Below are positions 55,440 to 62,033 of a DNA stretch of 64,000 bases, one piece after another. Within the stretch, counting starts at the first letter, position 1, and every line of letters starts with the position of its first letter. A program made the translations under genes and the position numbers. Source of the DNA: Streptomyces agglomeratus (GTDB lineage Bacteria; Actinomycetota; Actinomycetes; Streptomycetales; Streptomycetaceae); contig NZ_MEHJ01000001.1 of assembly GCF_001746415.1 (NCBI RefSeq), positions 6,702,501 through 6,766,500 on the forward strand, given 5' to 3'. The notes under the pieces were generated by a model that worked only from the letters and a program-made list of their open reading frames with translations, did not search any database and had not been told where the DNA came from.

Positions 55440-57995
55440 GTGGGCAGTGACAGCGGCGACGGTAAACGGCCGCGATTCTTCGTCGTCGCGGTGGGCGCGC
55501 GGGCGCCGTTCCACCGGACGATCGCCACCGCGCTGGCGGACCTCGCGGGGGGCACCGGCCCCGGCGACGACTCCCTGCGCGAGTTCGTCACCGACGGGCC
55601 CGCGCCCGGCCGCCGGGAACCCTGGCCGGACGCCTACGCGCAGGCACTCACCCGCTCCCGCCGGTTCCTCGACCGGGCTCTGCCGGCCGCCGAGATCCGG
55701 CTGGTCCACGCCGAAACCCTCGCCGACGCCGCGCGCCGGCTGCGACGCCTGACGGCAGGGCGCCGCGACGGCGACGACGCGATCGCACTCCTGCTGATCG
55801 AATCCGAACCGGCCGACGCACCCACCGGGCCACTGGCGGGTGGCGGCCTCGCCGAGGGTCTGGACGAACTGCGCGCGGTCCTGCCCGCCCACACACGCGG
55901 CGAGTTCGGCGCGTACACCGTCTTCGTCTACGACGACAGCCCGCTGGACCCCGTCCGACTCGCGCACCCCTGCACGCGGCGGCAACTGCCCGGCCTCGCC
56001 TGGGTACTGGGCGCCGACGTCATCTGCTCCTTCACCGACTACGTACAGCTGTGTTACGCCGGATCCGCGCTGCGCGGCGCCGCGCCGGACGCGCCCGCGC
56101 TGCTGGCCGACGAGCTGGCCGGTTTCCTCGCCGAACAGGCTGGCGACACCTGGGGACTGCACTACTACACCGGGTCGGTCGTGTCCGGTCTGATCGCGGA
56201 CCTGGAGACGCGCGCGACGCGCGGCGGCAACCCCGTGCTGCGCGGCCCGAGCGAACACAGCCTGGCCTGCGGGGCGCTGGCCCGCTGGCAGCTGGACGAA
56301 GCGCCCTTCCTGATCGTGGTGACCAGCGGGATGATCGACGAATTCCGCGGCACCCTGGCGAACCTGCGGGAGGCGCGAGCCAGGGGGTTCATCGTCTGCG
56401 CCGACTCGCGGCCGGACGCGTGGTACCCGTTCCAGGGCACCGTGCATGGCGCGGAGGACTCGCGGGAGGTGCTGCGGGCCCGCGGGCTGGAGTTCCGCTA
56501 CCTCGACGACCCCGCCCGCCTGCGGGAACAGCTGGCCGAGGCGTTCACGGCGTACGGAGCCGACCGCGGCCCGGTCGTCCTGCTCGCCACCCCGGAAGTG
56601 CTGCGGACCGCTGCCGTCGCGGCGCCCGCCGCGCGTCCCGGCGGCCGGACGCCCGAGGACGCCACCCCCGGCGCGAGCCCCGGTTCCCTGCCCGCAGGGG
56701 GGCCCGCGGCCCGTGCCCGGCCCCGGCTCGTGGTCGGCGAGGACGACCTGGCCCCCGTCATGGACATCATCAACGACGGCCCTGCCAGGCTGCTGTGGCA
56801 GTGCGGCCGGCTCGGCGCCGAGGAAAGCGCTCTGGTGCACGACATCGCCGACCGCGCGGGCGTCGCGCTCGCCGACTCGCTGACCCGGCCCGGGTCGGTC
56901 GCCCGCTACCGGGACGGGAAGGCCGTACCGCAGTACCTCGGCACGCTCGGCGTGTTCGGCTACTCGGACCGCGTCCACGCCTTCCTGCACCACGCCGGCC
57001 GGCTGCGCCCGCGCGACGAGCAGTGCCTGTTCTTCCTCAAGAGCCGTATCGCCGAGGCCGCCACGCCCTTCTCCCCCCGGGCGCTCCAACGGTCGCTGCG
57101 CATCGTCCAGATCACCCGCGAGGAGCAGCACCTGGCGCCCTTCGCCGACCACCGGCTGCGGTGCGACGGGCTGGAGTTCCTCCGCGAGGTACGCCGCAGG
57201 CTCGACGTCCCCGAGCCGCTGCGGGCCCGGCGGATGCGCGCCATCGAGGAGAGCCGGGACAGCCCCTCGGACATCGTCCACGCCCTGCCCCTGGTGCCGA
57301 TGAGTCCCAACTACTTCTTCCGGCGGCTCGGCGCGGTCCTCGACACGCTCATCACGGACCACGGATACACGTACACCGGCGTCTTCGACGTGGGACGCGG
57401 CGGGCTCTCCGCCATCCGCAACCTGCCGCGCACCGGGCCGGGCTTCTCCGGCTGGTACGGACGCTCCCTCATGGGGGACGCCCTCCAGGCCGTGCCCGCC
57501 CTCGCGCTGAGCCGGGGCGACAACGTGCTGGCCTTCGTGGGGGACGGCGCCCTGGCGCTGGTGCCCGGCATCGTGCCCACGCTGGTGCAGGAAGTGTGCG
57601 TCAACGGTCACCGGCTCGCGGGCAACGTCAGCGTCTTCCAGCTCATCGACGGCGGGCACTCGGTGATCCGCACCTACCGGGAGGGGCGCCGGGCGGGCGA
57701 GGCGGAACGCCAGACGCAGGTCCTGCACCTCATGGACGACGAATGGGAGCGGAAGCTGGGCGGCCTGACGGTCACCCACCGCCGTCTGACCGACGTGGAC
57801 CCCGTCGAGCTGACGGACCGGCTGCTCCGGCGTTCGGCGGTCGACGTGTACTCGGTGCCGCTCGCCCACAACAACGAGGGGGACGGGCTGAGCCTGCTGT
57901 CGTCCCTCGGCTGGCAGCGCGACACGCTTCCCGAGCTCACCTTCGCCATGGCCCGCCGTCCCGGCCCGTCCGCCCACGAGGGAGAGCTCCGTTGA
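55440..57995 (+). CDS. ThDP-dependent enzyme, PigD-like
   Basis: 851 aa from the GTG at 55440 (GGGGGA about 9 nt upstream); a GTG at 55416 is possible. The C-terminal thiamine-diphosphate site is FVGDGALALVPG with N737 26 residues after the GDG (709-711), and the central domain has ADSLTRPGSVARYRDGKAVPQYLGTLGVFGYSDRVHAFL. Size, domain order and, above all, the adjacent PigE-type fusion point to PigD of prodigiosin synthesis, which decarboxylates pyruvate and adds the acetyl unit to an enal in a Stetter-type 1,4-addition. The N-terminal 400 residues are less recognisable. Its stop overlaps the next gene's TTG by 4 nt. A classical acetolactate-synthase-like role is the alternative. Confidence 0.82.
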   Translation: MGSDSGDGKRPRFFVVAVGARAPFHRTIATALADLAGGTGPGDDSLREFVTDGPAPGRREPWPDAYAQALTRSRRFLDRALPAAEIRLVHAETLADAARRLRRLTAGRRDGDDAIALLLIESEPADAPTGPLAGGGLAEGLDELRAVLPAHTRGEFGAYTVFVYDDSPLDPVRLAHPCTRRQLPGLAWVLGADVICSFTDYVQLCYAGSALRGAAPDAPALLADELAGFLAEQAGDTWGLHYYTGSVVSGLIADLETRATRGGNPVLRGPSEHSLACGALARWQLDEAPFLIVVTSGMIDEFRGTLANLREARARGFIVCADSRPDAWYPFQGTVHGAEDSREVLRARGLEFRYLDDPARLREQLAEAFTAYGADRGPVVLLATPEVLRTAAVAAPAARPGGRTPEDATPGASPGSLPAGGPAARARPRLVVGEDDLAPVMDIINDGPARLLWQCGRLGAEESALVHDIADRAGVALADSLTRPGSVARYRDGKAVPQYLGTLGVFGYSDRVHAFLHHAGRLRPRDEQCLFFLKSRIAEAATPFSPRALQRSLRIVQITREEQHLAPFADHRLRCDGLEFLREVRRRLDVPEPLRARRMRAIEESRDSPSDIVHALPLVPMSPNYFFRRLGAVLDTLITDHGYTYTGVFDVGRGGLSAIRNLPRTGPGFSGWYGRSLMGDALQAVPALALSRGDNVLAFVGDGALALVPGIVPTLVQEVCVNGHRLAGNVSVFQLIDGGHSVIRTYREGRRAGEAERQTQVLHLMDDEWERKLGGLTVTHRRLTDVDPVELTDRLLRRSAVDVYSVPLAHNNEGDGLSLLSSLGWQRDTLPELTFAMARRPGPSAHEGELR

Positions 57996-60798: not shown

Positions 60799-62033
60799 AC
60801 GGCCGGCAGGTGGTGATCACCGGCATCGGCCCGGTCACGCCGATCGGTGTCGGCGCGCACGACTTCTGGCAGGCCCAGCTCAAGGGGGTCAGCGGGGTCC
60901 GCCGGATCAGCCGCTTCGACCCGGACGGACTCCCGGTGCGCATCGCCGGGGAGGTGGACCTGCCCGAGCGGTTCACCCCCGGCCGCCGGGAGGCGCTGGC
61001 CTCCGACCGCTGCACACAACTGGGCCTGGCGGCCGCCCGTCTCGCGCTCGAGGACAGCTCGCTGGACCTGACCGCCGAGGACCGTGACCGGGTGGGCGTC
61101 GTGATGGGCACGGGCGCGGGCGGCGCGCTCACCTGGGAGACGAACACGCGGGCCCTGGTGTCCGGCGGTCCGTCCAGAATCGGGGCGCGCTCCATCGCCA
61201 TGTCGATGGCGAACGGCACCGCCTCGCGGATCGCTCTCGACCACGGCATCACCGGTCCCAGCACGGCGGTCGTGACCGCGTGCGCGTCCGGAGCGGAGGC
61301 CCTCATCGGCGCCTGCCAGATGATCGTCTCGGGTGAGGCGGACGTGGTACTGGCGGGAGGCAGCGAAGCGCCGGTCACCCCCCTGATCGTCGGCGGCTTC
61401 GCCAGGATCAGGGCGCTGTCCACGCGCAACGACGAGCCCGAGCGCGCCAGTCGCCCCTTCAGCGAGGACCGCGACGGATTCGTGCTCGCCGAAGGGGCGG
61501 CGGTGCTGGTCCTCGAATCCCTGGAGCACGCGCGGGCACGGGGCGCCACCGTGCTGGCCACGCTCAGCGGTTACGGACGTTCGTCCGACGCGCACCACGT
61601 GACGGCCCCCCACCCGGAGGGCGCGGGCGCCGCGCGCGCGATGTGGGCGGCACTGCGCTCCGCCGGCTGGTCGGCGCGGGACGTCTCGTACGTCAACGCG
61701 CACGGCACCGGTACGTCGTACAACGACGCCTCGGAGGCACGGGCGCTGCGGACCGCCCTGGGCGAGGAGGCGGGCCGTACACCGGTGTCCTCGACCAAGT
61801 CGATGACCGGCCACAGCCTGGGAGCGGCCGGTGCGGTCGAGGCGGTGGTGTGTGTGCAGGCGCTGACGCACGGCGTCGTGCCACCCACGGTCAACCTCGA
61901 CCGCGCCGACCCGGACCTGGGACTGGACGTGGTGGGGGCGGACGCACGGGAGATCCCGCTCGGCGCGGTCCTCTCCAACTCCTTCGCCTTCGGCGGCCAC
62001 AACGTCGTCCTGGCCTTCGGCGCTCCCCGATAA
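60795..62033 (+). CDS. Beta-ketoacyl-ACP synthase (FabF/KASII-like)
   Basis: 412 aa condensing enzyme with Cys-His-His: VTACASGAEAL, NAHGTGTSYND and the MTGHSLGAAGAVEAV motif. VVITGIGPVTPIGVG is the usual FabF opening. No chain-length-factor feature is present because the active-site Cys is intact. It overlaps the ACP gene by 4 nt and is the last gene of the PigD/PigE-like cassette. It could extend an ACP-bound chain or prepare the enoyl/acyl thioester used by the reductase; FabF housekeeping function is unlikely given the context. Confidence 0.92.
   Translation: MNGRQVVITGIGPVTPIGVGAHDFWQAQLKGVSGVRRISRFDPDGLPVRIAGEVDLPERFTPGRREALASDRCTQLGLAAARLALEDSSLDLTAEDRDRVGVVMGTGAGGALTWETNTRALVSGGPSRIGARSIAMSMANGTASRIALDHGITGPSTAVVTACASGAEALIGACQMIVSGEADVVLAGGSEAPVTPLIVGGFARIRALSTRNDEPERASRPFSEDRDGFVLAEGAAVLVLESLEHARARGATVLATLSGYGRSSDAHHVTAPHPEGAGAARAMWAALRSAGWSARDVSYVNAHGTGTSYNDASEARALRTALGEEAGRTPVSSTKSMTGHSLGAAGAVEAVVCVQALTHGVVPPTVNLDRADPDLGLDVVGADAREIPLGAVLSNSFAFGGHNVVLAFGAPR

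Follow-up and report, generated by a model that had tools for sequence, protein, structure and literature searches.

What is a pair of genes resembling pigD and pigE of prodigiosin synthesis doing in a Streptomyces polyketide cluster? The pair stands at the head of four genes at 55440..62033 of a 64,000-nucleotide stretch of Streptomyces agglomeratus DNA (GCF_001746415.1, contig NZ_MEHJ01000001.1, positions 6,702,501 to 6,766,500 of the forward strand; the window). Gene calling, trained on the 64-kb window, confirms a cassette of a PigD-family thiamine diphosphate (ThDP) enzyme, a PigE protein, an acyl carrier protein (ACP) and a FabF-like ketosynthase (KS), with 4-base overlaps at all three junctions. 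The first-pass annotation had described four overlapping genes here, following PigD/PigE logic and gene order, with an ACP and a KS of their own and in an actinobacterial polyketide synthase (PKS) setting, and all of this is borne out. We consider it likely that the four genes form a self-contained pyrroline cassette, whose ring would be a separate building block for the halogenated, glycosylated product of a ~96-kb cluster of PKS and nonribosomal peptide synthetase (NRPS) genes. The gene identities, conserved residues, co-occurrence and cluster conservation presented below are direct observations, from which we infer the substrates, the order of steps, the product and the mode of ring attachment.

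Identity of the four genes

The 851-aa protein (55440..57995, forward strand) matches the NCBIfam model of PigD, NF053552, with 798.8 bits across residues 64-832; this is its sole NCBIfam match, with none of the acetolactate-synthase type, and its predicted structure is a ThDP fold. Among the 22 rows longer than 700 aa in an alignment of 23, Glu272 and the Gly-Asp-Gly at 701-703 are invariant and Asn729 is kept in 21, Pseudovibrio being the exception; the glutamate and the GDG-N motif, the putative ThDP residues, are common to PigD-type proteins. At an E-value of 0.001, Pfam yielded no family and a PDB sequence search no relative. As no PigD structure was retrieved by sequence, the ranking of folds, headed in Foldseek and VIA by acetohydroxyacid synthase (AHAS), HKA synthase and hydroxyacyl-CoA lyases, cannot favour PigD. 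An acetolactate synthase identity, named in the first-pass annotation as one outcome that would contradict its reading, is ruled out by the absence of any such match in Pfam, NCBIfam and PDB sequences, the ThDP fold being shared and our trees containing no acetolactate synthases.

The 842-aa protein that follows (57992..60520, forward strand, TTG start) is PigE, an N-terminal thioester reductase fused to a class III aminotransferase. It passes NF053554 with 1270.8 bits (cut-off 850), and PDB chain 4ppm_A aligns to its residues 1-825. Cys291, the Rossmann motif GYPGSI and Lys619, the last presumably the pyridoxal phosphate lysine of the aminotransferase half, are invariant in all 10 full-length rows of an 11-row alignment. 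PMC10829540 names entry 4ppm as PigE; the reductase cysteine of Serratia PigE is residue 296, equated with Cys294 of the cyanobacterial acyl-ACP reductase (AAR) (PMC8341465).

The ACP (60517..60798, forward strand, 93 aa) is of type II, carries its phosphopantetheine serine in a DSL motif and exceeds the cut-off of TIGR00517 with 75.1 bits. The KS (60795..62033, forward strand, 412 aa) passes the fabF model TIGR03150 with 514.7 bits (cut-off 493.75), and inspection by eye reveals the putative Cys-His-His motif of such enzymes. It is a dedicated paralogue, its two nearest relatives in its own genome matching at 45-46%.

Occurrence and descent

How widespread is this arrangement? Of 392 genomes drawn evenly from the genus, including that of the window, nine match the PigD model, none above its cut-off, and four carry a PigE above its cut-off; these four all lie within the nine, and in each of them PigD, ACP and KS adjoin PigE. 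PigE is above cut-off in three of 101 genomes sampled from the family, and of seven PigD-model matches in 394 genomes drawn from the class, five come from one other genus, one is that of the window and one (G521, 19 bits) was treated as spurious. Scanning named genomes for PigE returned 14 loci. Seven of these hold a PigE relative, whole or partial; the seven weaker loci, L016 to L022, were kept outside the cassette classes, and in L017 to L022 the similarity is confined to one half of PigE. PigE is followed by ACP and KS in 10 of the 11 gene-called loci with PigE-like genes, L016 being the exception; among the 10, L014 starts within PigE and L013 has an additional gene separating PigE from the ACP. 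Chance adjacency of the four genes is ruled out by this recurrence across loci.

Nineteen PigD loci were gene-called and their neighbours grouped by BLAST, with Pfam applied to some; the same gene run holds an ACP in 12 and PigE in nine. In class A (the window, G126 and Streptomyces scopuliridis, G473/L009), the four genes stand beside a PKS cluster of the window's type; two more loci are placed with them, L010, whose contig falls into the class A clade but does not extend far enough to reveal the PKS, and L014. Class B, making up five of the 10 cassette loci, has the four genes, and the 22 to 49 kb of sequence fetched per locus contain no modular PKS (G374, G317, L011/G442 and L012/G430 from Actinacidiphila, L013 from Tetrasphaera), so the cassette seems to need no polyketide. 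In G430, two additional type II-sized KS genes lie ~12 kb from the cassette, and a saccharopine-dehydrogenase-like reductase is found near it in two of the five class B loci (Pfam on one). Four of the five have an MMPL-type exporter at most two genes away (L035:4087-6309, L011:5088-7340, L012:4985-7183 and L013:15115-17478; Pfam on two, BLAST grouping for the others), which would suit a lipid-like, exported product of the stand-alone cassettes.

The remaining classes lack PigE. In class C (G298, G069, G051), PigD overlaps an ACP gene and a PKS lies within ~11 kb, possibly supplied with an acetyl-branched starter or extender made by Stetter chemistry; genes for type I PKS and of the KAS III group are found nearby (L042/L041 in G298, L043/L044 in G069, L045/L046 in G051). 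In class D (G183, G158; Pfam on G158), PigD has a GDSL hydrolase, an O-methyltransferase and an alpha/beta hydrolase as neighbours. In class E (G514, G531, G591, G609, G674; Pfam on G531), the run of genes that contains PigD also encodes 3-hydroxyacyl-CoA dehydrogenase and acyl-CoA dehydrogenase, dehydratase-like and hexapeptide proteins, and sugar aminotransferase/epimerase enzymes, with KAS III in three of the five; this run is conserved over five genomes of another actinobacterial genus (L085/L086, L082/L083, L089/L090, L084, L087/L088).

Quick maximum-likelihood trees of PigD (23 rows), PigE (11 rows) and KS (12 rows), with SH-aLRT support only, are mutually compatible, and the cassette has therefore probably been inherited as a unit. 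Class A forms one group in all three (98, 100 and 99, respectively), placed among the class B rows except Tetrasphaera. The simplest reading, on a midpoint root and with long Tetrasphaera and Pseudovibrio branches, is that a stand-alone cassette came first and was later recruited into a PKS cluster.

A proposed route to an alkylpyrroline

How might the four proteins build a ring? The KS and ACP, presumably helped by housekeeping ketoreductase and dehydratase, would make an enoyl-ACP. By analogy with PigD, its relative would decarboxylate pyruvate on ThDP and, in a Stetter-type addition, attach the acetyl unit at the beta position of the enoyl chain on the ACP. The resulting 3-acetyl-acyl chain would be loaded on Cys291 in the reductase half of PigE and reduced with NADPH to the aldehyde, whereupon the aminotransferase half would form an amine that cyclises onto the ketone, PigE thus releasing a 5-methyl-4-alkyl-3,4-dihydro-2H-pyrrole, that is, a 2-methyl-3-alkyl-1-pyrroline.

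This scheme follows what is published for prodigiosin, where the ring compound H2MAP is 5-methyl-4-pentyl-3,4-dihydro-2H-pyrrole (PMC7065143). The enal that the first-pass annotation had assumed as the PigD substrate is outdated, published work pointing to an enoyl thioester as the acceptor (PMC8341465). Earlier work cited there found PigD to add acetyl at the aldehyde carbon of 2-octenal and at the beta position of thioesters. The 3-acetyloctanoyl thioester is an intermediate, with evidence for its reduction by PigE; as the N-acetylcysteamine (NAC) thioester, it brings pigment back in a pigD mutant and is converted to H2MAP by PigE-containing lysate (PMC8341465). Whether the acceptor is carried by CoA or ACP was left undecided by Couturier et al. 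2021 (PMC8341465). Since the cassette includes an ACP, and PigD of class C overlaps an ACP gene in the absence of PigE, gene order points to an ACP-bound acceptor, with classes D and E showing that an ACP is not always there.

Several points weigh against this route. The 851-aa protein falls under the curated PigD equivalog cut-off (798.8 against 950 bits), as do all other actinobacterial matches in the genus and class draws, whereas the Pseudovibrio PigD clears it with 1288.6 bits; the first-pass annotation had matched the protein to PigD in size, order and domain layout, and judged from its sequence it is of the PigD family, a clear relative that lies outside NCBI's PigD equivalog. The cassette has no ketoreductase or dehydratase gene, so that the supply of enoyl-ACP is assumed. 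Purified Serratia PigE failed to reduce the thioester in vitro; only lysate did so (PMC8341465). A locus in a metagenome-assembled genome, L016, holds only PigE-like pieces (39-47%), with no ACP or KS match. Finally, classes D and E, seven of the 19 PigD loci, are without PigE, and tblastn at E 0.001 finds no ACP relative in them; PigD therefore need not yield a pyrroline in every case, and its pairing with an ACP is not constant.

Alternative readings

A wider reading, which we hold as tentative and on the whole doubtful, would make the PigD family a portable, carrier-bound Stetter module of actinobacteria. Together with an ACP, it would set an acetyl branch on an enoyl-ACP, and its partner would decide the outcome: pyrrolines with PigE and KS (classes A and B), direct uptake of the acetyl-branched acyl-ACP by a PKS (class C), and a third use in the acyl-CoA/sugar operon of class E. 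In the window, moreover, the nucleophilic 5-methyl carbon of the pyrroline would capture and off-load the chain of the last PKS module, which has neither a thioesterase nor an acyltransferase (AT) domain, to give a halogenated pyrrolinyl polyketide glycoside.

We consider unlikely the outcome favoured in the first-pass annotation, in which the modular PKS passes its chain to the cassette, yielding a pyrroline or pyrrole with a polyketide side chain. In its favour, cassette and PKS stay together in all three strains showing the cluster, and no thioesterase domain was found in the third PKS protein (PKS3), whose last domain is an ACP. However, all five class B loci keep the full cassette, including KS and ACP, with no modular PKS in the stretches fetched, and the window's ACP and KS pass models of type II carriers and fabF. 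As half of the cassette loci show no modular PKS within the fetched sequence, the chain more likely comes from the KS and ACP of the cassette itself; the polyketide side chain is thus not supported, and a separate alkylpyrroline is the likelier product.

We regard it as improbable that the 3-acetyl-acyl-ACP made by the PigD relative serves the KS as an acyl unit, with PigE acting elsewhere or only on a shunt: the pairing of PigD, ACP and PKS in class C in the absence of PigE suggests that PigD plus ACP might feed a PKS, but PigE lies between PigD and ACP in the window and in the other cassette loci with both ends seen, and the gene trees fit joint descent. Acyloin formation by the 851-aa protein in the manner of acetolactate synthase, with tertiary alcohol or acetoin chemistry rather than a Stetter addition, would suit the top fold ranks, but with the PigD model as its only match in the sequence searches of Pfam, NCBIfam and PDB, and PigE adjoining its gene, this can be practically dismissed.

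Relation to known pathways

The pyrroline cassette is alike in gene order, sizes, domain layout and conserved residues to the PigD-PigE pair of the 2-methyl-3-n-amylpyrrole (MAP) branch of prodigiosin synthesis in Serratia, Hahella, Janthinobacterium and Pseudovibrio, and its PigE is above the curated cut-off. It differs in its PigD relative, which is under the PigD cut-off, in the dedicated ACP and KS after PigE, and in the PKS/NRPS, halogenase and sugar genes that surround it. In the prodigiosin-type cluster of Pseudovibrio (L015), PigC, PigD and PigE are all above their cut-offs, and no stand-alone ACP or KS adjoins pigD-pigE in stop-to-stop frames of at least 200 aa or, for the ACP, by tblastn. 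The PigC (above cut-off) and PigB-like (506 bits, under its cut-off of 850) proteins of Pseudovibrio, used as queries, found only short stretches of at most 31.2 bits and no full-length relative in the window's genome. A prodiginine cluster is thereby ruled out for PigB and PigC, no gene-by-gene search having been made for the remaining bipyrrole genes PigA, F, G, H, I, M and N, and to this extent the earlier statement that the product is not a prodiginine holds. With PigB not found, a possible oxidation of the ring to a pyrrole could fall to other flavoproteins of the cluster.

The undecylprodiginine of Streptomyces obtains its alkylpyrrole half by the RedL/RedK route, which uses different enzymes and is not known to involve PigD or PigE. 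Saccharopolyspora has a PigD homologue (P0089, protein sequence only) that belongs to the PigD family, with 49% to the window protein across 93% of its length, and clusters with class C rows in the PigD tree, apart from the window's cassette. According to PMC10829540, the reductive release and transamination of actinobacterial polyketide alkaloids likewise turn a thioester into an aldehyde and an amine in an actinobacterial PKS cluster; compared with what is described there, the window has the AAR-like half of PigE for a reductase, and a ThDP-dependent acetyl addition would come first.

The surrounding cluster

The conserved cluster of ~96 kb (G000:C1 6,668,160-6,764,533) starts ~34 kb beyond the window's left end and finishes with the KS, and its gene order is the same in S. 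scopuliridis and, from its contig start onward, in G126. Close counterparts are missing from the fetched stretches for 14947-16143 (AMP-binding), 16150-16947 (phosphopantetheinyl transferase) and 12502-13239 (AraC); the NDP-sugar dehydratase/epimerase-like gene at 25157-26155 is likewise not closely matched in either other strain. In the PKS region left of the window, genes were called with different splits, and one (1380 aa) is closely matched only in G126. On the right the cluster ends with the KS; 62043 to 63289 is unmatched in the stretches of both other strains. A block of FemAB-like, FAD protein and other genes follows the KS in four other strains by BLAST (L033:6785-12975, L009:14377-22171, also L010 and L014); none of the genes at the window's right end or in the 20 kb beyond it finds its best match in that block.

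The left part of the cluster contains PKS, NRPS (condensation-adenylation-carrier modules, two with thioesterase), a GMC oxidoreductase and a SARP-type regulator (Pfam, from G126 proteins and the window's genome). Within the window, Pfam assigns an EryCIII-like glycosyltransferase and a methyltransferase at 3606..5601 (reverse strand). A fused lantibiotic-dehydratase-C/nitroreductase protein (7210-8925) and a vanadium chloroperoxidase-like protein (9178-10695) are kept in two other strains. The following genes are on the forward strand unless stated. Sequence matches identify amino-deoxysugar genes at 17795..26155, comprising NDP-hexose 2,3-dehydratase, epimerase/reductase-like, methyltransferase, aminotransferase and 3,5-epimerase genes, then DUF418, RmlA and, last, the dehydratase/epimerase-like gene mentioned above. 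A second flavin halogenase-like protein (26513..27796; PF04820, 143 bits), in which we recognise what is presumably the halogenase motif, and a large LuxR-type regulator (29115..31859; Pfam) precede a flavin halogenase of the tetracycline 7-halogenase (CtcP)/PltM kind (31891..33564; PDB sequence matches of 533 and 314 bits; 91-93% in two other strains).

By Pfam and motifs, the PKS comprises a module KS-AT-dehydratase (DH)-enoylreductase-ketoreductase (KR)-ACP (33694..40041) and a two-module protein, KS-(no AT)-KR-ACP and KS-AT-DH-KR-ACP (40114..49416), followed by a KS-ACP module without AT (49428..51848; Pfam), whose AT serine motif is absent in all three strains. Modules 2 and 4 (within 40114-51848) thus lack an AT, by Pfam in the window and by motif in the three strains; a RhiE-like branching role for the AT-less module was dropped, as Pfam names just a linker. 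There follow a stand-alone thioesterase (51845..52636; PF00975), a flavin reductase that may partner a halogenase (52659..53189; Pfam), an MFS transporter (53386..54582, reverse strand; Pfam) and a TetR regulator (54655..55323; Pfam; 65-69% in two other strains). These genes lead us to expect a halogenated and glycosylated PKS/NRPS compound that includes an alkylpyrroline. Open-access literature searches on the cassette, its product and PigD/Stetter chemistry, judged by titles and abstract openings, listed no description of the cluster, which is weak evidence of absence with subscription journals mostly outside.

Implications

With an ACP encoded in the operon itself, the ACP answer to the question of Couturier et al. 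2021 (PMC8341465) becomes directly testable, and the three other loci that lack PigE but have PigD overlapping an ACP gene bear on the same answer. The cassette offers a compact enzyme set for alkylpyrroline production, and it may serve as a marker for apparently unstudied actinobacterial clusters that join pyrroline chemistry with PKS/NRPS assembly.

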